DNA from: Candidatus Aenigmatarchaeota archaeon
GTDB taxonomy: Archaea > Aenigmatarchaeota > Aenigmatarchaeia > CG10238-14
Length of the DNA stretch: 54,028 nt
Reading direction: 5' to 3'
NCBI GenBank assembly: GCA_018920365.1
Contig: JAHLMM010000004.1
Coordinates: 1 to 54,028, forward strand
A program made the position numbers and the translations under genes. Below the pieces are notes generated by a model, which ran no database searches, was not told the DNA's origin, and saw only the letters and a list, made by a program, of their open reading frames with translations. Below, one piece after another: positions 1,393 to 54,028 of this stretch; position 1 is the first letter of the stretch; every line of letters starts with the position of its first letter.

Positions 1393-2622
1393 ATGTTTTC
1401 AGATAAACCCAACATATGTCCTGCATGTAATAGCAACATATGGTCTCATAAAAGCAACTGTCCTGTTCTCAAAAGAATATTGTTACAGCATAAATTGAAG
1501 CAGAATTACATAAAAAAAGAATTGTTCGGTTCAACGCCACCATCAATAATAGTTGGTGAATGGAATTATCCAAAAGTAAATGTCGGTATACTTTTACCAA
1601 ACGAAACAGGAAATACAACTATATATGATTCGCCAAAAGAATGGTATAAGCAAAAATTTACAATTGAAGATGTCTTTAATCTTAGATTAAAGTTATACAA
1701 TGCTAAAAATACATTTGATAAGAAAATTAATGATAAAAAAATAGAAACTATTCAAGAAATAGCCGCTGCTTCTATGCCGACAGATACAGAAATAAAATTA
1801 AGTAAAAACCCTTTTTTTGCGCTTCATCTTAATCCATTCACAGCACCATATGGACCTACAGGAGATTTTGAGCAAATAAAAATAGTTGAGAATACTAAAA
1901 TTGACAGAAAAGTTGATTATATTATCAGTGATGTTGATTTGAAAGCAGAACAAGCTGTCAAGATATTGTATGATGATTATGACGTTTATAACATAACAAA
2001 ACTTTTATCTGCTGGATTATTAGGAGTAAAAAAACAAAGAAAACTTGTACCAACAAGATGGGCAATAACAGCAATTGATTCTATTTTGATAAAGGATATG
2101 CTTAGATCAATCAAACAATTCGATTCTATAAGTGATCATATGCTCTTTCAATCCAACTATATGGGAAATTACTTCAATATTTTGTTAATACCTGAAAAAT
2201 GGATGTTCGAAGTTATAGAAATAGCTGTACCGGGTGCAACATGGATGAGTAGCAAAAATCCGATAATAGTAAATGATTATGAATTTTATGAAGGCAGAAA
2301 GGATTATGCTGCTGATGTTGCTGGTGGTTATTATGCGGCTGAGCTAGCTATATTAGAATATTTATCTAGCATAAAAAAACAAGCAGGCGTGTTGGTAGTA
2401 AGAGAAATAAGGCCAGAATATTATGCTCCTGTTGGCGTTTGGAAAGTAAGAGAATGTATAAGAGATGCTTTTAGTAAAAAACCATTAGTGATTAAAGGAA
2501 TTGACGAATTTTTTGAAATAGTTGACAAGCAGTTTATAATCAAAAGCGATGAATGGAAAAGAAAAAGTAAGATTTTACAATTTATAAAAAATCAAAAAAG
2601 AATTTTCTCATTTCTAAAATAG
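1393..2622 (+). CDS. nreA: DNA repair protein NreA
   Basis: 409 residues. The N-terminus has the NreA zinc-binding pattern (C-P-A-C ... C-P-V), then the family signature F-G-S-T-P-P-S-I-I-V-G-x-x-x-Y-P-K-V-N-V-G, and later P-T-R-W-A-I-T-A-I-D. NreA proteins are archaeal DNA-damage-response factors that contact the sliding clamp. The last residues, Q-K-R-I-F-S-F-L-K, fit a PCNA-interacting (PIP) box Q-x-x-h-x-x-a-a, matching the known clamp link. An upstream in-frame TTG (1390) exists; ATG 1393 is preferred. It is convergent with cdc48, stop to stop with no gap. Confidence 0.9.
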   Translation: MFSDKPNICPACNSNIWSHKSNCPVLKRILLQHKLKQNYIKKELFGSTPPSIIVGEWNYPKVNVGILLPNETGNTTIYDSPKEWYKQKFTIEDVFNLRLKLYNAKNTFDKKINDKKIETIQEIAAASMPTDTEIKLSKNPFFALHLNPFTAPYGPTGDFEQIKIVENTKIDRKVDYIISDVDLKAEQAVKILYDDYDVYNITKLLSAGLLGVKKQRKLVPTRWAITAIDSILIKDMLRSIKQFDSISDHMLFQSNYMGNYFNILLIPEKWMFEVIEIAVPGATWMSSKNPIIVNDYEFYEGRKDYAADVAGGYYAAELAILEYLSSIKKQAGVLVVREIRPEYYAPVGVWKVRECIRDAFSKKPLVIKGIDEFFEIVDKQFIIKSDEWKRKSKILQFIKNQKRIFSFLK

Positions 2623-5218
<2,596 letters not shown>

Positions 5219-5324
5219 ATTTTAGATTATTTAAACACTAAATATTTAAATTTTATTGATATTTATACGGCAAAAAATGAAAACACTTAAATTTTAGTAT
5301 GCTATTTAATTTGAAGGTAATTTT
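5219..5324. promoter_or_regulatory. Divergent promoter region, cdc48 operon / eS8
   Basis: 106 bases rich in A/T with TATA-like ATATTTAAATTTTATT (about 5241-5256) serving the minus-strand cdc48 operon and TTAAATTTTAGTATG (about 5286-5300) about 30 bases before the eS8 start. Confidence 0.35.
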
Positions 5325-44332: not shown

Positions 44333-44363
44333 AATTGTTTTGAATTAATATATTTATTAATTC

Positions 44364-44437
44364 GATACAAGTTTTAAATACAATATGATAATTGATACAA
44401 GTTTTAAATACAATATGATAATTGATACAAGTTTTAA
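44364..44437 (+). repeat. 30-bp tandem repeat, about 2.5 copies, in frame with gene start
   Basis: Units begin at 44364, 44394 and 44424, each starting GATACAAGTTTTAA; the first two are identical over 30 bases. Thirty bases is ten codons, and the unit contains ATG ATA ATT GAT ACA AGT TTT, the start of the DUF6994-like gene, so that start is duplicated in frame. There are no spacers, so this is not a CRISPR array. Confidence 0.85.
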
Positions 44438-45121
44438 TTTTTATACTGATGCAAAAAGTGGTGATCCAGATATCAAAAGTCCGACGCTCAAAAAATATCA
44501 TAAAATATTATGAGCAAACCCTTACCAAACGGTAAGATTTTTGAATTAACAGATAATAGAAAAGGTGCTTATCTATATCATAAATCAGAACTTGGAGAAT
44601 TCTTTTTAGGTAGCGATTGTATAATAAATTCTTATAAAAATCATAAGAGAAAGAATTGGATTATAAAACAAATTCCTGAAGAAGTGAATGAACTTTTTAA
44701 CGCAGGTTCTACCATTGGAGCTTATATTATTTTTCCAAATAAAAGAATTAACAGAAAATATACAATCAATCAGGCGCGTGGAGTAAATAGTTTTATTGAT
44801 GATAGATTCGACTTGACATTAGAATGTATTCGTCTTTTTTACTTAGGTAAAAAAAGTCCGCTTTATGAAACTTTATTGAGATACAAGAATTTCTTCGATT
44901 TATTCGAGAATTTTATTGGATATGTCAAATTCTTTCTGTTGGAAGATCTAATTGATGACAAAAATAAAATTAAATTTTTTTTACCATTTGACAACTTCAA
45001 AACTCGTCCAAAATTCTCTAACATAAATGAATATTTATTATACAAAAAAAGAGTAATGGAATTTATTAGATCAAGAAACAAAAGAATAGAGAACTATGTT
45101 AAACTTGTAAAAATTGATTAA
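44385..45121 (+). pseudogene. DUF6994-like protein, split by one-base frameshift
   Basis: Frame 1 starts at ATG 44385 or, more naturally, ATG 44415 (M-I-I-D-T-S-F-N-F-Y-T-D) and ends K-Y-H-K-I-L at TGA 44511. Frame 2 opens at ATG 44510 and runs 203 residues (S-K-P-L-P-N-G-K ... R-F-D-L-T-L-E-C-I-R ... K-F-F-L-P-F-D-N-F) to 45121. Related proteins read Y-H-K-x-L-W-S-K-P-L-P-N-G without interruption, so a single G seems lost at TTATG(G)AGC. The resulting ATGA overlap could allow re-initiation. Function of the family unknown. Confidence 0.8.
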
Positions 45122-45140
45122 ATTTAATTCTGGTTTATAG

Positions 45141-45388
45141 TTTTATCGATATATTGTAAGTGATATTTTAGAAAAGTTAATAAAAATAGCTAGATTACGG
45201 CTATTAAATTCATTGAAAAACTTGGTTGTACAGATCTGAATAATGCTAATGGAATAGATGTTCAACAAAACGTTTTTCATTTTCATCTACATGTTATTCC
45301 TAGATATATCAATGACGGTATAGATTTGTGGTTTCATAAAAGAAATACCAAAAAAGATATTGATTTAGAAGAAAATTACAAATTTTAA
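45141..45388 (+). pseudogene. HIT (histidine triad) family remnant
   Basis: Frame from 45141 reads Y-I-V-S-D-I-L-E-K-L-I-K-I-A; a second frame from 45194 continues I-K-F-I-E-K-L-G-C-T-D-L-N-N-A-N-G and V-F-H-F-H-L-H-V-I-P-R-Y to TAA 45386. The H-x-H-x-H-x-x motif and NANG/Q-x-V context are those of HIT hydrolases. The N-terminal third is missing and a frameshift lies near 45190. It fills most of the 355-base gap before the helicase gene. Confidence 0.75.
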
Positions 45389-45476
45389 ATTTTCTTGTTT
45401 TTTAGAGTTTAAACTATATATATGACTAAATTTTATTATAAATTATTGAAATGTCAAAAATTCCAAAGGATGAAAA

Positions 45477-48400
45477 ATGATCATAGTTAATAATAGAGCA
45501 GGTATATTAGATGGTGAAAAAACAGTATTAGATGTATTTAAAGAACGTATAGCTAGAGCATTAAAAAATAATGAAGAAATATCCTTTTACGTAGCTGTTG
45601 GGTTCTTCTTTTTTGAAGGTTTTCAGAAGATATATCCACTATTGAAAGATTTAGATGAAAAGAATCTTCTTAAAGAATTCAAAATTGTCATGGGTCCAGA
45701 GACAAGAAAAAACACAAAAGAAATTCTAGAAGCATTAAAAAAAGATGCTGTTGTCCTTAATGATGAAATATTTGAATTTATTAAAAAATTATATGATGTA
45801 AATAAATTTGATTTTAGAATTTTTTTAGAAAGAGCTTTTCACATAAAACTTTATATATTTGATTTTGCTAGAAGCGGTTCAGAAGTTTGGGCTGGTTCCG
45901 CAAATTTAACTGAAGCTGGTTTAGCAGAAAATATTGAATTAATTGTACCGACAGGGATTACGATCGAGGAAAAAGATCTCTACAAGCAATTTTTTAATAA
46001 AATATGGAATAAATCAAGTGATAAAGTTGATAATTTAAAAGTAATAGATATAGTTAGAAAAGCCTCTTTATCTGAAACACTTTATCTTTATCCTCGTGAT
46101 TTTATAGCAAGTTTGTTAAAGATAATGGGTAAGGAATATTTAGTAAAAAATATAAGTTTGGATCTTTCTTATCTCGGGGAGTTTCAAAATATGAGCTACT
46201 ATCTTTGTTTAGAAAAAATGAAAACTTATGGTGGAGTAATTTTAGCAAACTCATATGGATTAGGTAAAACTTATGTTGGTTGTTTGATAGCTAGATATTA
46301 CAAAGATCTTGGAAAAAGGGTTTTGATAATTTATCCACCTGTTCTTGAAGATCATTGGAAAAAAACTTTAGAGAAGGTTGGTTTAAATATAACTGACGTA
46401 GAATGGCTATCAAGAGGTCTACTTCAAAAAAGCAATTTTAATTATGAAAAATACAAAAATATTGACTTAATTTTAGTTGATGAAGCGCATCATTTCAGAA
46501 CTTCAAAACCTAAATCAAATAGAAGGGAAAATTTAGAAAACATAAGTAAAATAAACCCGAATTCTCAAATGCTTTTGATAACAGCAACACCAATAAATAC
46601 TTCTTTATTAGATTTTACAGAACTTATCAAACTTTTTGCGAAAAGTATTTATAAGGAGAGATTTGAAACAGAAGGTATACTTTCAAAAATATACGAAATT
46701 GAACATAATGTAAAATCAAAAGAAATAACAAAAAATACAATAGAAAAATTGAATGAATTGATAAGAAAATTCACTATAAGAATAGAATGGTCAGACATAA
46801 TAAAATATTTTCCTGATGATCTGAGGAAAATATCTGGAAAAGAAAAAATTGAAAATCCTGAAGTATTTCAGGTAACATATAAATATGATGAAGAAATTAT
46901 AAGGAATATTTTTGACAATATAGTACCTTTCTTAGATAACTTAAACTTTGAATACACAAAACTTTGGGAAAAAGAATATAAGGAGGATAAAAACCTAATA
47001 TGGTGGTACAAATGGAGATTGTATAAAAGACTTGAGAGTAGCATAACAGCTTTTAAAATCAGTCTTGAAAATATTTTAGAAAAAAATATTTTTCTTAAAG
47101 AATTTTTAACAAAAGTAATCACAAATATTAAATATGAAGAGAAAACAAATTTATTTTCCAAAGAAAGACTAGAAAATATAAAAAATACTTTTCTTTCTCT
47201 TTCTAAATCTAAAAAAGAAGAAATTTTGGACAGATTTAAATCAGATATAAATTTTGTTAATAATATGTTAAAAAATATTCAAATGATTCAAGATTTAGAA
47301 GTTAGAGATGAAAAAATTAATAAGTTAATTGAAATTCTAGAAAAAGAAAAAAAACCGACGATTGTATTTTCTGAATCAAGAGATACTGTTATCTACATAG
47401 GAAATAAACTCAAGAAGTATGGAAAGTTTAAATTTCAATTGGCATATGGTGGCGAAATACGAGATGAGGAATTTGATGGTGAATTTGAGATACCTACAAT
47501 TGACAAAGATAAAATTCAAGAATATTTTAATAAAGGCAAATTTGATATTTTAATAACTACTGATATAATGGGAGAAGGTACAAATTTACCAGGACCAGAA
47601 AATAAGAATCCTATTATAATAAATTTTGATCTTAGTTATAATCCAGTGAGATTAATTCAAAGAGATGGGAGAGCAATAAGAATTGATCATCCAAAAAAAG
47701 TTTTTATTTATAATTTTGAACCAGATGAAAGAATTGACAAGGAACTAGAACTTTGTGATAGGGTTGCAAAGAGAATAGAAAATATAATTTCTACAATAGG
47801 TCTAGATTTCATTATTTGGGCAATTGAAGAAAAAAAGATAAAAAAATTTTCTGAAAAAAATAGAAAGAGGACAATAAAATTAATTCGTGAATATAAAGAT
47901 CTATTGGCAACGAAAACACCAGAAGAAATTAGAAAGAGATTTACCCCAACTCTTTCTAAAGAAGATAAATCTCTTAGGGAATTTATAAAATATTGGGGAA
48001 TTTCGGAAGAAACATTAAATTATTTTTCTGGAAATTATAGAAAACCTATATTTACTGGACTCAAGAAAAATAATAATATAGATTATTTTGTTGTTTTTGA
48101 ATATAGAGGTGGTATTCATACTTTAGGTGAAATTATATTTTCTGAAAAAAATTTTGAAGCTAATATAACAAAAATAGATTTGGAAAAAATTAACTCCTTA
48201 ATTTCAGAAAAATGTCTAGAACTTGATAAAGAGTTTTTAAAAGTAGTCTATAGAAAAGATAGACTTGATTTTCAAATAGAAAAACTATTAGAAAAAAACG
48301 AGAAATTAAAAAATATTTTTAGAAATATAGATATTTCGTGTTTTACCAAAAATAACAAAAAAATTATCTTGGATAGTCTTAAAAAGATTGACAAAATACC

Positions 48401-48521
48401 ACCTTGGAAAAAAGAAATAGAAATAGAAAAATTACAAGCATTAATTAACAAAAAAATAATAAATGGTTATCAAAAAAGTATGGCTAAACCAAAGCTACTA
48501 GCAGTGATAAAATATGTCTAA
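45477..48521 (+). CDS. PLD-like nuclease / SNF2-type helicase fusion
   Basis: 1014 residues. N-terminal phospholipase-D-like domain (~1-170) with one H122-x-K-x4-D129 motif and G-S-A-N, as in PLD nucleases that act as dimers. Helicase core: Walker A S-Y-G-L-G-K264-T, box II D-E-A-H (335-338), T-A-T-P-I-N, then after a long helical insertion D-I-M-G-E-G-T-N-L and R-L-I-Q-R-D-G-R-A-I-R. It would translocate on and cut DNA. The methylase gene overlaps its stop by 8 bases. Codons are very A-rich, more than in the housekeeping genes. Confidence 0.9.
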   Translation: MIIVNNRAGILDGEKTVLDVFKERIARALKNNEEISFYVAVGFFFFEGFQKIYPLLKDLDEKNLLKEFKIVMGPETRKNTKEILEALKKDAVVLNDEIFEFIKKLYDVNKFDFRIFLERAFHIKLYIFDFARSGSEVWAGSANLTEAGLAENIELIVPTGITIEEKDLYKQFFNKIWNKSSDKVDNLKVIDIVRKASLSETLYLYPRDFIASLLKIMGKEYLVKNISLDLSYLGEFQNMSYYLCLEKMKTYGGVILANSYGLGKTYVGCLIARYYKDLGKRVLIIYPPVLEDHWKKTLEKVGLNITDVEWLSRGLLQKSNFNYEKYKNIDLILVDEAHHFRTSKPKSNRRENLENISKINPNSQMLLITATPINTSLLDFTELIKLFAKSIYKERFETEGILSKIYEIEHNVKSKEITKNTIEKLNELIRKFTIRIEWSDIIKYFPDDLRKISGKEKIENPEVFQVTYKYDEEIIRNIFDNIVPFLDNLNFEYTKLWEKEYKEDKNLIWWYKWRLYKRLESSITAFKISLENILEKNIFLKEFLTKVITNIKYEEKTNLFSKERLENIKNTFLSLSKSKKEEILDRFKSDINFVNNMLKNIQMIQDLEVRDEKINKLIEILEKEKKPTIVFSESRDTVIYIGNKLKKYGKFKFQLAYGGEIRDEEFDGEFEIPTIDKDKIQEYFNKGKFDILITTDIMGEGTNLPGPENKNPIIINFDLSYNPVRLIQRDGRAIRIDHPKKVFIYNFEPDERIDKELELCDRVAKRIENIISTIGLDFIIWAIEEKKIKKFSEKNRKRTIKLIREYKDLLATKTPEEIRKRFTPTLSKEDKSLREFIKYWGISEETLNYFSGNYRKPIFTGLKKNNNIDYFVVFEYRGGIHTLGEIIFSEKNFEANITKIDLEKINSLISEKCLELDKEFLKVVYRKDRLDFQIEKLLEKNEKLKNIFRNIDISCFTKNNKKIILDSLKKIDKIPPWKKEIEIEKLQALINKKIINGYQKSMAKPKLLAVIKYV

Positions 48522-51500
48522 ATATGATATAAATTGGCTTAAAGAAAAAGGGTTTTTCGAAAAACCAATTTCTCTTAGAATTGAAGATAGAGATATTTTT
48601 TTAGATGGTAATAATCTAATTGCTTATGCAGAAGTTTTCAGTAATGAAGAAGTTGAAAAAATAAGGAAAAAAATATCATATTATGCTAAAAAAATCAAAT
48701 ATATATGGTTTTATTTTCCATATGAAGAAAAATCAAAAGTTTTCAGAAGAGATATCGGAGAATTATCTTGGTTTTGGTACAAACCACAACTCAGAAATGA
48801 ATTTCTTAAAAGCAAAGAAGACAAACTCAATAAATTTTCTACAAAAAATATAGATATTCTTTTTGATACTCGTGACGTTGCTGAAAAGTTTTATTTGAAA
48901 TTATGGGAAGTAAGAATAAAACTTGCAATAAGCATAAATGATTTAGAAAAAGATGGAAACAAACTTTTAGTTGTTCAACATCTTCTAGATAGATTAATAT
49001 TTTTTTATTTTCTAGCTCAATTAGGACTTGTAAGAATAAAAAATAATGAAAAAGATTGGAAACTCGACAGAAAAAGAACCAGGCAATTTTTTAAATGGAT
49101 TTGTGATGTATTATCTGAAAAGGATTTACAAGATTTTCTCAACAGAATATTTTTCGATGTTTTAGGAAAAGTAAATGAAATAGGTTGGTCAACAGAATAT
49201 TTTGAAATAGGTGGTGAAAAGTTTTCTGTGACAGCACCATCTCTAAACGGAGGTCTTTTTATAGAAAAAGAATTTGAAGGAAAAAACGAGAGAGAAATAA
49301 AAATTAACGGAATAAGAGAACTTATATTAGACGTTCTTAATAAATATAATTGGATTTTAGGTGAAGAACTACCAGAAGAAGAAGATGTAATTGGGGATTT
49401 AACACCAGAAATAATTGGACATATTTATGAAAAGTTTGTTGTATCATTAGAAAAAATAGGATTGGAAAAGATAAGACTAAAAGATATTAAAATAGTTAAA
49501 GAAGAATTAAGATATGCTAGAAAAAAAATAGCGGCTTATTACACACCGGAAAAAATCACAAAATATATTTCCAAAAATACAATTTATCCTTATATTCAAG
49601 ATAGATTGAAAGAGAAATTTGGTGATGATGGTAAAATTTTACTCAAAGAGTTGTTCAAAAAAAACAATTTTAATAAGAAAGAACTTGAAATTATAAGATA
49701 CCTTTACTTTGAAATTTTAAGGAAAATAAAAATATGTGATAATGCTTGTGGTTCCGGTTCTTTTTTAATTGCTGCTGGTAATATTCTTTTAAGACTTAAC
49801 AGTAAAATAATAAAAATTCTTCAAGAAAATCTTAGTGATAACGAAGTAAAAAAAATCATTGAAAAAATTAGAGAAAGTCCGACAAGAAATTATTTCATAG
49901 TTAAAGAAATAACAACAAATAATCTTTATGGTGTAGATATAATGGAAGGTGCCATAGAAATTGCCAAGCTCAGATTCTGGTTATGGTTAACTTCTCAAAT
50001 TGATCCTAATAAAATTGAAAGAAAAAGAATAGATACACTACCAAATTTAGACTTTAATTTAATGGTTGGTAATAGTTTGATTGGATTTGTAGATATCGAA
50101 GACATTGATTTATCTAAAATTTTAAGGGAATCTAAGAAACTTAAAAAAGCATTATATGAATTCAAGGGTTTTGAAGAATTTAAAAAAGTTAATGAAACTA
50201 TAATTTGGTTAAAAAATTTGATTAAAAGAAAAGAAGAATTTAAAAATTTACCTACATATGAAGCCATTAAAATAAAAGAAGAATTTAAGGAAGAATTAGA
50301 AAAAGCGAGAAATTTTTTGAATGAAAAATTCTATGAAATGTTAAAAGATAAAAAGCTAAATTTTTCTAAGGAAGAATTTTTAGAACTAAAACCATTTCAT
50401 TGGGGTTTTGAATTTTGTGAAGTTTTTGATTTAGAAAAACCAAAAGAAGAGAGAGGGTTTGATATAATAATTGGAAACCCACCTTATATTAATATATACG
50501 AAATCCCTATTTTAGATAAAGAAATTTACTCAAAAACATTCAAACTTAGATATAAAAAATATGATATATTAATATTATTCATAGAAAGATCGATTCAACT
50601 TATGAATTATTTAAGCCATTTTTCTTACATTACATCTGACAAATGGGTAGCAGAAGAATATGGTTTATATCTAAGAAAATTTATTTCTGAAAACAGAAAT
50701 ATTAAAGAAATAGTTGATTTTGAAGACTATCACGTATTTGACGAACCTAAAGTATATAATGTTATATTTATTTTAACTAAACAAAAGTTCGATAAGATCA
50801 TAATTAAGTCAAAAGATTTTTCAATTAAAAACATACTATCTTATGAATTTATTAAAAAACATCCAAAACTTCATTTAAGATTAGATATGGGAAGTATAGA
50901 AAAAGAAATAATTGATTTTATTCTTTCTAATAAAATCATGATAAAAGATATATGTTATGTAAATTGGGGATGTAGACCTTCTCCCTCAAAAGAATATATT
51001 TTTGATAAATATGAAGAATGTTTAAAAGTAACTAAAGATGAAAAAAAATGTAAAAAACTAATTAAGGGATCAAATATCAGACGTTATGGTTTAAATCCAC
51101 CAATAAAATGGTTAGCATATTTACCTTCTATGTATAATCCAATGTTTCCTGATTTATTCGAAAACGATAGAATAATTATTAAAGATATCGGTATTAAACC
51201 ACTAAAAGCTAATTTCTTAAGTGGAAAAGATAAAATATATTCTGACCATACAACAATAAATTTAATTCTTTATAAAAATTTACCTAGGAAAAAAAAGGAA
51301 CAACAAAATTCAATTAAATTTTTCGATGTTAACTTAAAGTATTTATTATCGTTGATTAACTCAAAATTAATAAACTTTTATATATGGATCTTTCTTTCGG
51401 ATCGTCTTCATGTGCTTCCAGAAAACACAAAACAAATACCAATTGTGATACATGAAAATATGAAAATTTTAACAGTATTTTGTGACTATATGCTTTTTCT

Positions 51501-51810
51501 TAACGAGAAAGAAGAAAGAAAAAAATCCGAAGAAGAACTCATTGAATTTATTGATAGGCAAATCATCGATCCTTTAGTTTACGAACTTTATTTTAAAGAA
51601 AAATTTGAAGAAGATGGAATAAAAGTAAATCTTTTAAAATTAGTTGAACCGCATTTGAAAAATATTGAAAATATAAAATCAGATGAAGATAAATTGAAAA
51701 TAATTAAACAAGTTGTTGATAAAATTAAAAATGATGAAAAAATTATGAAAGAAATTGATAAAATTAAAAATCATAAATGGGTCAAAATAATTGAAGGTTT
51801 GAAAACGTGA
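48514..51810 (+). CDS. Adenine-specific DNA methyltransferase with TaqI-like target domain (type IIG/ISP-like)
   Basis: 1098 residues. Helical N-terminal region (~110-180, F-D-T-R-D-V-A-E-K-F-Y), Y-Y-T-P-E-K-I-T before the methylase core, SAM motif I D-N-A-C-G-S-G-S-F-L (~407-416), N-L-Y-G-V-D-I, and motif IV G-N-P-P-Y (~652-656) of N6-adenine methylases. The C-terminal third (~860-1010) looks like a TaqI-type recognition domain, and the end is coiled coil. No nuclease motif of its own was seen; cutting would come from the partner. ATG 48514 lies inside the helicase gene. Confidence 0.9.
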   Translation: MSKYDINWLKEKGFFEKPISLRIEDRDIFLDGNNLIAYAEVFSNEEVEKIRKKISYYAKKIKYIWFYFPYEEKSKVFRRDIGELSWFWYKPQLRNEFLKSKEDKLNKFSTKNIDILFDTRDVAEKFYLKLWEVRIKLAISINDLEKDGNKLLVVQHLLDRLIFFYFLAQLGLVRIKNNEKDWKLDRKRTRQFFKWICDVLSEKDLQDFLNRIFFDVLGKVNEIGWSTEYFEIGGEKFSVTAPSLNGGLFIEKEFEGKNEREIKINGIRELILDVLNKYNWILGEELPEEEDVIGDLTPEIIGHIYEKFVVSLEKIGLEKIRLKDIKIVKEELRYARKKIAAYYTPEKITKYISKNTIYPYIQDRLKEKFGDDGKILLKELFKKNNFNKKELEIIRYLYFEILRKIKICDNACGSGSFLIAAGNILLRLNSKIIKILQENLSDNEVKKIIEKIRESPTRNYFIVKEITTNNLYGVDIMEGAIEIAKLRFWLWLTSQIDPNKIERKRIDTLPNLDFNLMVGNSLIGFVDIEDIDLSKILRESKKLKKALYEFKGFEEFKKVNETIIWLKNLIKRKEEFKNLPTYEAIKIKEEFKEELEKARNFLNEKFYEMLKDKKLNFSKEEFLELKPFHWGFEFCEVFDLEKPKEERGFDIIIGNPPYINIYEIPILDKEIYSKTFKLRYKKYDILILFIERSIQLMNYLSHFSYITSDKWVAEEYGLYLRKFISENRNIKEIVDFEDYHVFDEPKVYNVIFILTKQKFDKIIIKSKDFSIKNILSYEFIKKHPKLHLRLDMGSIEKEIIDFILSNKIMIKDICYVNWGCRPSPSKEYIFDKYEECLKVTKDEKKCKKLIKGSNIRRYGLNPPIKWLAYLPSMYNPMFPDLFENDRIIIKDIGIKPLKANFLSGKDKIYSDHTTINLILYKNLPRKKKEQQNSIKFFDVNLKYLLSLINSKLINFYIWIFLSDRLHVLPENTKQIPIVIHENMKILTVFCDYMLFLNEKEERKKSEEELIEFIDRQIIDPLVYELYFKEKFEEDGIKVNLLKLVEPHLKNIENIKSDEDKLKIIKQVVDKIKNDEKIMKEIDKIKNHKWVKIIEGLKT

Positions 51811-52056
51811 GTGTTTTAAAAAAATACTATTGGTCGTGCCCTTTTTGTGATAAAGTAACTATAAGACTATTTTATAAATATTAAAGAACCTATGATATGG
51901 GAAAGTATATTTAAATTAAGTTATTATTACAAATCAAAGACGTCTAATTGTAGAAAATTTTCTGATGTAATTAAAAAAAGAATTGAATGAAAAGAAATAT
52001 CTTATAGAGATATAGAATTTTTAAAAAATTTTGGCTGCATCTTAAATCAACATTAA
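51807..52056 (+). pseudogene. Broken small zinc-finger gene, third gene of the methylase cassette
   Basis: GTG 51807 overlaps the methylase TGA as GTGA and reads 25 codons with Y-W-S-C-P-F-C-D-K to TAA 51882. Another frame takes over at 51883 (K-E-P-M-I-W-E-S-I-F-K-L-S-Y-Y-Y-K-S-K), passes an in-frame TGA (51988) and goes on E-I-S-Y-R-D-I-E-F-L-K-N-F-G-C-I-L to TAA 52054. One frameshift plus one stop in ~80 codons of protein-like sequence marks a recent pseudogene. Family unknown. Confidence 0.6.
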
Positions 52057-52104
52057 ATAAATTTAATTAAACCTTTATATTTTTTCATTTACCAATTATC
52101 AATT

Positions 52105-52416
52105 ATGGCCAAACCAGAAATCATCGAAATAAAATGCCCTTTTTGCGGCTATGAAAAAATAAAAGCAAACTTCTATCCTTCAGTTTTACAAACAGCTGTT
52201 TCTCGCTCAGCAGCAAAAGGCTCGGTAACAAAATTCTATAGAACAAAAGAAAAATATGAAGTATTAAGTGACTGCGAAAAATGCGGTAAAAAGGCAAAAG
52301 AAATAGAGAAAGCATTAAAGGATGGTATAAAAGATCCTGAAAAGGAAAAAAAGATAGAAGATAGATTAAAGCAACAAGGTTTATTTATACCAGAAATTAA
52401 AACTAAATTGAAATAA
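52105..52416 (+). CDS. Zinc-ribbon protein
   Basis: 103 residues. C-P-F-C-G at 12-16 and C-E-K-C-G near 58-62 make one split zinc ribbon with a 40-residue insert, then a charged helical tail (K-D-P-E-K-E-K-K-I-E-D-R-L-K-Q-Q). It starts after a TATA-like AACCTTTATATTTTT. It may be a housekeeping or defence-linked gene; the opening C-P-F-C resembles the broken gene just upstream. Confidence 0.7.
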   Translation: MAKPEIIEIKCPFCGYEKIKANFYPSVLQTAVSRSAAKGSVTKFYRTKEKYEVLSDCEKCGKKAKEIEKALKDGIKDPEKEKKIEDRLKQQGLFIPEIKTKLK

Positions 52417-52471
52417 TTTCATTCATAATTTCTAACTTTATTTTCAAAATCATAAACGAATTTCTAAATAA

Positions 52472-52489
52472 ATGTTATACGTATAACAT
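52472..52489. repeat. 18-base palindrome family, copy 3 (perfect)
   Basis: ATGTTATACGTATAACAT, perfectly symmetrical. It lies between two convergent gene ends (zinc ribbon stop 52416, aldo/keto reductase stop 52496), where no promoter is expected. Confidence 0.85.
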
Positions 52490-52495
52490 TCTCAC

Positions 52496-53302
52496 TCAAT
52501 AATCAAAATCTGAAAACACAGGATTAACAAATCTAATATTCCTATTTAACCCGTCTATCTCTTTAACATCTTTTTGATCCAAAGAAAAATCAAAAATATC
52601 AATATTCTCTTTCAGCCTTTCAACAGAGCTAGACTTTGGTATAGCTGCTATTCCTTTCTGATAAAGCCATCTCAAGCAAACTTGCGCAGCTGTTTTATTA
52701 TGCTTTCTAGCAATCCTAACCAAAACATCATCTTTTAATATATTGCCTCTACCTAAAGGCGAATAAGCAATAACAGCTATTCCATTCTTTCTGCAAAACT
52801 CTAACAGCTTTTCCTGATACAAATAAGGGTGAAACTCAACTTGATTAGCCACTATCTTCACTTTAGTCTTTAAAGCATCTTTCAAATGATTTATTGTGAA
52901 ATTGCTGACACCAATATTCCTTATTAAACCATCATCCAATAATTTTTTCATCGCCTTTATCGTCTCTTCTATTGCTACACTTCTATTAGGCCAATGAATC
53001 AAATACAAATCCAAATAATCTGTTTTTAACTCTTTTAACGTCTGCTCACAAGCTTCTAAAACATCTTGATAATGCAAATGCTCAAACCAAACTTTAGATG
53101 TTATGAATAGCTTTTCTCTCTTGCCTTTTATTGCTTTACCAATCTCTTTTTGGTTATCATAAATTTCAGCGGTATCTATATGTTTATAGCCTATTTCAAT
53201 TGCTTTAGCAACAATCTCTCTACATTTCTTTCCTTCCAATTGCCAAGTACCTAATCCAATAAAAGGCATCTCATAACCAGAAGATAACTTCAAATTAAAC
53301 AT
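52496..53302 (-). CDS. Aldo/keto reductase
   Basis: 268 residues, (beta/alpha)8 barrel. Family blocks: G-L-G-T-W-Q, H-I-D-T-A-E-I-Y-D-N (catalytic Asp and Tyr), F-I-T-S-K-V-W (Lys), Y-L-I-H-W-P-N (His), I-R-N-I-G-V-S-N-F, Q-V-E-F-H-P-Y, A-Y-S-P-L-G-R-G and I-P-K-S-S-S. NADPH-dependent carbonyl reductase; substrate unknown. Confidence 0.95.
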   Translation of the reverse strand: MFNLKLSSGYEMPFIGLGTWQLEGKKCREIVAKAIEIGYKHIDTAEIYDNQKEIGKAIKGKREKLFITSKVWFEHLHYQDVLEACEQTLKELKTDYLDLYLIHWPNRSVAIEETIKAMKKLLDDGLIRNIGVSNFTINHLKDALKTKVKIVANQVEFHPYLYQEKLLEFCRKNGIAVIAYSPLGRGNILKDDVLVRIARKHNKTAAQVCLRWLYQKGIAAIPKSSSVERLKENIDIFDFSLDQKDVKEIDGLNRNIRFVNPVFSDFDY

Positions 53303-53323
53303 ACTATAATATTGTTTTTTCTT

Positions 53324-53788
53324 TTATTTTTTTGTCACTTCTTCTGGTGCCCTATACTCATCCCAATAAACTTTCTTTTCTTTTATTATTTCTCTTATTT
53401 TTTTCTGCAGATCACTCAATTGAGATTTGCCTGATTTTACTTCCAAAAAAACAATTTCTTCTGGATCTTTCTTGCTTAAACCTTTAAAAACGATAAAATC
53501 TATTGGTGTACCTATAAAACGAATCTCAGTGGGATCATACTTAAAATCAGGCAAATATGGTGCTATGTTTTCTGCAAATTTACCACCTACTGTTTGTCTA
53601 GATTTTTCTGCAGATTCTTTTCTTGCTTGCTCAATCAACTTCTGCCATTCCCTTATTGATCTTTCTCTTTCAATAATTTTTCCAATATTATATCCAATAA
53701 TAACAAGGAAAAAACCTATAACAATCAACAGCAAAATTTCAAAAATTCCCATGAAATTATTTATAATAATTTGGTTAAAAACTTTCAC
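53324..53788 (-). CDS. Membrane-anchored Holliday-junction-resolvase-like endonuclease (Endonuc_Holl type)
   Basis: 154 residues from GTG 53788, or 142 from ATG 53752. N-terminal transmembrane helix (M-G-I-F-E-I-L-L-L-I-V-I-G-F-F), a coiled linker, then the nuclease-like core G-T-P-I-D-F-I-V-F-K-G-L ... E-I-V-F-L-E-V-K-S-G-K-S-Q-L with the E-V-K of the PD-(D/E)xK fold, and Q-K-K-I-R-E-I-I. GTG overlaps the stop of the Cas2-like gene as GTGA. Family name says resolvase-related; activity is unproven. Confidence 0.82.
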   Translation of the reverse strand: MKVFNQIIINNFMGIFEILLLIVIGFFLVIIGYNIGKIIERERSIREWQKLIEQARKESAEKSRQTVGGKFAENIAPYLPDFKYDPTEIRFIGTPIDFIVFKGLSKKDPEEIVFLEVKSGKSQLSDLQKKIREIIKEKKVYWDEYRAPEEVTKK

Positions 53789-53994
53789 TTTATTGCATGC
53801 TTTTTATCAAAAATCATTGCCTTTCCGCCATTTGTTTTTATAACTTGATATATTGTTTTCAACTCATCCAAATTATCGCTTTCCCAAACAGAATCTTGAA
53901 CCATCCTAGCTTTTATTCTATTAAGCAGTCTGTTAACTTTAACTCTTAAAGATGCTTTCTCTCTTTTTATATCAAATATCAGCAAATAACCCAT
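53785..53994 (-). CDS. Solitary Cas2-like small protein
   Basis: 69 residues. M-G-Y-L-L-I-F-D-I-K-R (strand with Asp as in Cas2), a basic helix V-N-R-L-L-N-R-I, then A-R-M-V-Q-D-S-V-W-E-S-D-N-L-D-E-L, which matches the Cas2/VapD-like ferredoxin fold Q-x-S-V-[WF]-E/Q segment. No cas1 or CRISPR repeat is in the window, so it is not an adaptation gene here. The perfect palindrome ends 3 bases before its ATG. Confidence 0.65.
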   Translation of the reverse strand: MGYLLIFDIKREKASLRVKVNRLLNRIKARMVQDSVWESDNLDELKTIYQVIKTNGGKAMIFDKKHAIK

Positions 53995-53997
53995 AAT

Positions 53998-54015
53998 ATG
54001 TTATACGTATAACAT
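53998..54015. repeat. 18-base palindrome family, copy 4 (perfect)
   Basis: ATGTTATACGTATAACAT, identical to copy 3, ending 3 bases upstream of the Cas2-like start codon, where a bound protein would block transcription or translation. Confidence 0.85.
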
Positions 54016-54028
54016 CTTTTTAAAAATT

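Follow-up and report, generated by a model that had tools for sequence, protein, structure and literature searches.

The stretch analysed here (the window) comprises positions 1–54,028 of contig JAHLMM010000004.1 of the Candidatus Aenigmatarchaeota archaeon assembly GCA_018920365.1, a genome of 752 kb in 19 contigs and an estimated 94% complete; it is archaeal by its LSU rRNA, and carries on its forward strand two overlapping genes that form the subject of this study. The first gene (45477..48521) encodes a 1014-amino-acid (aa) fusion of a phospholipase D (PLD) nuclease and an SNF2 helicase, the proposed restriction subunit, and the second (48514..51810) a 1098-aa N6-adenine methylase with a recognition domain, the proposed modification and specificity subunit. 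Both open reading frames (ORFs) start with ATG and they overlap by 8 nt (ATGTCTAA; 48514..48521), the same length as in the corresponding pairs of Haloferax marinum and Natronococcus. A first-pass annotation of the window had described such a module, which is hereby confirmed, its coordinates, protein lengths and 8-base overlap all agreeing with our ORF check.

Profile searches identified PLDc_2 (E 3.5e-6), the NgoFVII PLD domain (RE_NgoFVII), SNF2-rel_dom and Helicase_C in the 1014-aa protein, in line with its earlier description as a single-motif PLD nuclease joined to an SNF2-type helicase. The PLD domain spans residues ~1–195 (45477..46061, forward strand), with a lone HxK (H122/K124) and a GSxN motif (GSAN, 140–143), while the helicase core spans residues ~236–785 (46182..47831, forward strand), with Walker A (GLGKT, 261–265), DEAH (335–338) and QRxGRxxR (728–735) motifs. 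We compared it with its counterparts at a total of 90 PLD-SNF2 loci, gathered by scanning genome contigs for the helicase alone and adding relatives and plasmids. Across the 90 rows, Walker A GxGK, the D, E and H of DEAH, and the Q, R, G, R and R of motif VI are invariant, and H122 and K124 are present in every methylase-paired row except one that is truncated (L028) and one that is odd (L103); the HxK is missing from an eight-row clade at Type III loci, the one clade without an Eco57I methylase. The third residue of a canonical HKD, the D, is unconserved among these proteins, a departure seen also in SauUSI, which has HxK(x)4E (PMC7913695). In an AlphaFold2 model (mean predicted local distance difference test score, pLDDT, 72), the C-terminal 230 residues (786–1014) are mostly of low confidence, and Foldseek matched the model to SNF2 remodellers, the second match being SauUSI (7clg) over 956 columns.

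In the 1098-aa protein, matches to Eco57I (1.8e-33), MmeI_Mtase and TaqI_C (3.3e-7, at residues 848–977) uphold its reading as an N6-adenine methylase with a TaqI-like recognition domain. The catalytic domain (residues ~331–790; 49504..50883, forward strand) contains intact motif I (409–417) and NPPY (655–658), and is followed by the target-recognition domain (residues ~790–1020; 50881..51570, forward strand). Among orthologues, the D and G of motif I are kept in all 66 rows and NPP in 64–65 of the 66, and the methylase chains of 22 relatives showed no nuclease domain. The top PDB profile matches were CamA, BseCI, BrxX, BpuSI and MmeI; with the AlphaFold2 model (mean pLDDT 63; poor at the N-terminus, residues 1–118, and in the recognition domain, 761–937), Foldseek returned PglX/BrxX as best, and also CamA, BsaXI, MmeI and the Type ISP enzyme LlaGI. 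Foldseek TM-scores were low for both models because domain placement is uncertain. The locus thus encodes together the intact nuclease, motor and methylase motifs generally expected of ATP-dependent restriction–modification (R-M), and these are retained in orthologues, where the first-pass annotation had held that missing catalytic residues would tell against it.

The pair is not confined to this genome: a search for it elsewhere found an Eco57I-type methylase of the same broad family at 79 of the 90 loci, within 100 bp of the helicase in 51 of them (44 downstream, 7 upstream). Moreover, the 945 kb lying no more than 4.5 kb from the helicase held 71 methylase-profile matches, versus three in the other 555 kb, a density ~14-fold above background at these helicase-selected loci, so that methylase–helicase proximity exceeds chance. 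Of the 11 loci without such a methylase, three show none and eight are the clade mentioned above. The two-gene form occurs across many bacterial and archaeal phyla; viral contigs yielded no relative and annotated phages only weak partial matches. The nearest loci, archaeal rows that form a supported group in the tree, are those of genome G053, Haloferax marinum, Natronococcus, Haladaptatus, a Pacearchaeon and the Methanothermococcus okinawensis plasmid pMETOK01 (L129), where the helicase is 46% identical and the methylase lies upstream. That methanogen plasmid (14.9 kb) also encodes an integrase and toxins of the RelE/MazF type, a setting suggestive of mobility. The closest relative of the window helicase (67% identity) is in genome G053. 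Behind that homologue is a short ORF (L024:7320-7481), HEPN-like and helical by eye and not a methylase, to which Pfam gave no identity, and a second, distant PLD-SNF2/methylase pair is present in the same genome (L027, G053:C75; helicase 1884–5237, methylase 2–1900, both on the reverse strand).

How the two proteins diverge relative to one another was examined in 25 locus pairs with helicase-nucleases 63–82% identical, by scoring the least conserved 150-aa segment of each protein. The helicase-nuclease is alike over its whole length (lowest segment 47–74% identical), whereas the lowest methylase segment is only 3–33% identical in 23 of the 25 pairs, mostly in the C-terminal half, with the N-terminus higher; some pairs (involving L062, L075, L079 and L082) keep methylase similarity only over the first 150–200 residues. 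Between the window and pMETOK01, helicase identity is mostly 44–56%, and methylase identity is 38–46% up to about residue 600 and ~22% thereafter. Over 60 loci, identity in methylase residues 1–150 correlated with helicase identity (rho 0.42–0.52) almost as closely as the helicase domains did with each other (rho 0.43–0.62), versus a rho of 0.11–0.21 for the methylase recognition domain against the helicase. Since the pairs share members and alignment is difficult, these exchange and correlation figures are to be taken as guides. With this proviso, comparison of the loci suggests that an exchangeable address is carried by the methylase, whose recognition domain would be exchanged freely between loci, and that its residues 1–150 (48514..48963, forward strand), which track the helicase and are modelled with low confidence, are a candidate docking region for the latter. 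Restriction may use the same exchangeable recognition module as modification. What is new here is this pattern in the methylase, of a C-terminal half usually exchanged between related loci and an N-terminus tracking the helicase.

We consider it probable that the pair is a two-subunit ATP-dependent R-M system, and the best reading by analogy is that it would work as a Type ISP/Type I enzyme split in two, its PLD-motor subunit resembling SauUSI; SauUSI and Type ISP/Type I are also its closest precedents in mechanism. The 1098-aa protein would methylate an adenine, with its C-terminal recognition domain choosing the target and its N-terminal region holding the PLD-SNF2 protein there; at an unmethylated site the SNF2 motor would move along DNA, and paired PLD domains, each contributing one HxK, would cut when motors collide or stall. 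This reading is supported by recurrence of the pair, retention of catalytic residues (with the HxK lost in the one clade that lost the methylase), exchange of the methylase recognition domain without matching change in the helicase-nuclease, co-variation of the methylase N-terminus with the helicase, a PLD-motor build like that of SauUSI, and a ResIII-type enzyme at the same junction in a sister genome (see below). The proposal in the first-pass annotation of a distinct ATP-dependent restriction system, with the methylase giving specificity to a dimerising PLD nuclease, held up in every computational test made of it, DUF1998, DUF499 and DUF3780 being absent as well (see below), and we infer that the two proteins form a complex, that it translocates, dimerises through its PLD domains and cleaves, that a motif is methylated, and that the locus serves defence.

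Several observations weigh against this reading. The methylase lies 0.1–5 kb from the helicase at 28 loci, in some cases upstream and with intervening genes. On the G053 contig (L024), no methylase is present in the 170 bp left after the helicase, and the window methylase has no match in that 92%-complete genome, so that in some cases the helicase might work by itself. In addition, the 25 compared pairs share members and are hence non-independent, and the case for docking comes from sequence because the methylase model is poor at its N-terminus and recognition domain. The G053 relative would also fit a different explanation, whereby the PLD-SNF2 protein would on its own attack modified DNA, as a Type IV enzyme akin to SauUSI, the adjoining methylase being independent or protective. 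SauUSI ranks second among the fold matches of this protein, aligning over the full length, and works with no methylase beside it (PMC7913695). Against this, a methylase accompanies 79 of the 90 loci, the one clade that lost the methylase has lost the PLD site too, the methylase N-terminus co-varies with the helicase, and the variable module belongs to the methylase, the helicase being conserved throughout, all of which makes this explanation unlikely.

We are similarly doubtful of exclusion in the manner of PglX and bacteriophage exclusion (BREX), where methylation would mark self and the helicase complex would stop unmarked DNA from replicating, cutting it little if at all. PglX/BrxX are the best Foldseek matches of the methylase, and the BREX_1_MTaseX profile gives it 77 bits, but the BREX marker PglZ (PF08665) had no match in the genome (control positive in two genomes) and paired loci retain the PLD HxK, which is the mark of a nuclease. 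Descent by gene loss from class 1 of the defence island system associated with restriction–modification (DISARM), or from the DUF499 'Type-2 BREX-related' system, has some basis in homology: the DrmD equivalog gives the window helicase 102.5 bits and NF042964 ('phospholipase D-like anti-phage protein') 116 bits, the methylase is homologous to DrmMI (90 bits), and DrmD is followed by a methylase on Bradyrhizobium and Oscillatoria plasmids. These helicase scores are, however, far under the equivalog cut-offs of 610 and 1100 respectively, and in the tree a single clade unites 40 pair-type helicases to the exclusion of both DrmD and the DUF499-system helicase (Shimodaira–Hasegawa-like approximate likelihood ratio test 99; the latter's branch is long). 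Moreover, DUF499 (PF04465) was not found in seven of nine other genomes carrying the pair, and the two-gene form spans many phyla, so that such a reduced or degraded system seems to us highly improbable.

The pair occupies a variable island (44337..52115), bounded by the points where similarity to the sister genome G001 breaks off, ~44336 to the left and ~52116 to the right; window positions 52116–54028 are 98% identical to G001, the match ending 300 bp past the methylase stop. Across the right junction, G001 carries a ResIII-type restriction enzyme (L135:9162-11816, G001:C12), its island being split over contigs. Replacement of this kind is usual for restriction loci, and a slot holding either the pair or a ResIII-type enzyme looks like an R-M-like restriction hot spot. 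Directly upstream of the pair is a gene for a DUF6994 protein (44510–45121; E 1.7e-76), and decayed coding remnants flank it at 45190–45390 and 51811–52090, the left one resembling by eye the end of a HIT-family protein (HFHLHVIPRY).

The eight loci of the clade without HxK and Eco57I methylase (L101, L107, L115, L119, L123, L124, L126 and L128) have four genes, for PLD-SNF2, DUF4391, a Type III Mod-type methylase and a Res helicase-nuclease, and look like Type III R-M systems with an added, apparently nuclease-dead SNF2 motor. Their assignment as DUF499 loci was ruled out, since Pfam gives Type III Mod, DUF4391 and Res. An E. coli plasmid (L152:3213-12241) provides a further example of this arrangement. 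The PADLOC model C3a139 'HKD+Snf2' is the best PADLOC match, at 107 bits, but was rejected as a name for the pair because its top score (376 bits) falls on this HxK-less clade; a literature search on 'C3a139' found nothing.

On balance, and with little more than even confidence, we take the pair to represent a class of ATP-dependent restriction systems that is widespread and apparently still without a name, occurring in many bacterial and archaeal phyla and separate in ancestry from DISARM and DUF499 systems, in which a PLD-SNF2 motor-nuclease works with an N-terminally docking methylase whose exchangeable address serves both modification and cutting. If so, a common arrangement annotated as 'helicase-related protein' plus 'DNA methyltransferase' would be a restriction system in its own right, present even in a small-genome archaeon; it would offer methylases with readable, swappable specificities and link SauUSI-like, Type ISP-like and DISARM-like designs. 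The exchange pattern also raises the question of whether a methylase supplies the address for a PLD motor-nuclease that lacks an evident recognition domain of its own.

The first-pass annotation would have yielded to assignment of the pair to an already named system, but it belongs to none of those tested. Membership of DISARM, BREX or the DUF499 Type-2 BREX-related systems was rejected, as DUF1998, PglZ, DUF499 and DUF3780 had no match and scores were far below cut-offs. PADLOC and NCBIfam contain no model that names the two-gene arrangement, and full-text searches of the open literature, which gave the DUF499 system and PbeA, found no description of it (REBASE and subscription papers were outside the scope). 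The nearest look-alike is the Type-2 BREX-related system, with an N-terminal HKD/PLD nuclease and SWI2/SNF2 helicase, an N6-methylase in the locus and a proposed R-M-like action (PMC12839542). An Acinetobacter baumannii plasmid locus with NF042964 (L151) has the matching order DUF499-DUF3780-DUF1156-PLD/SNF2. There, too, PLD and SNF2 are fused, but the system has four genes, including a DUF499 ATPase, DUF3780 and a DUF1156-type methylase, whereas the window genome showed no match to DUF499 (positive control worked) or to DUF3780, which occurs in 98% of such loci (L151 control 1.4e-75). The fusion that the annotation took as a distinguishing mark separates the pair from class 1 DISARM but not from the DUF499 system. 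Class 1 DISARM (DrmD, DrmMI, DrmA, DrmB, DrmC) likewise has an SNF2 helicase and, after it, a large adenine methylase, with a PLD nuclease in the set. As to the claimed absence of DrmA and DrmB, it holds for DrmB-type DUF1998/MZB (PF09369) throughout the genome (control positive in eight genomes), and for DrmA, which was not searched genome-wide, only in that neither gene adjoins the pair.

Other likenesses concern single parts of the pair. Its methylase is of the Eco57I-type gamma class, as in Type IIG methylases, PglX and CamA; what sets it apart is that none of the 22 relatives examined showed a nuclease domain in this chain. CglI and NgoAVII carry out ATP-dependent restriction with PLD nuclease and superfamily 2 (SF2) helicase subunits (PMC5737866), and the RE_NgoFVII PLD domain is shared with the window protein, but in these enzymes a B3 recognition domain is joined to the PLD, the helicase forms a subunit of its own and protection comes from a separate methyltransferase. 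SauUSI combines PLD and SF2 ATPase in one chain with one HxK per chain, as does the window protein, and translocates and cuts as a PLD dimer that forms the active site (PMC7913695), but it has its own 5-methylcytosine-reading domain and no methylase partner. Type ISP enzymes (LlaGI, LlaBIII), finally, are marked by ATP-driven translocation and by two head-to-head sites. They differ in being single chains with an Mrr-like PD-(D/E/Q)xK nuclease in place of PLD and a motor that is not of the SNF2 type, yet they present nuclease, SF2 motor, gamma-type adenine methylase and C-terminal recognition domain in the same order as the window pair (PMC3874165).

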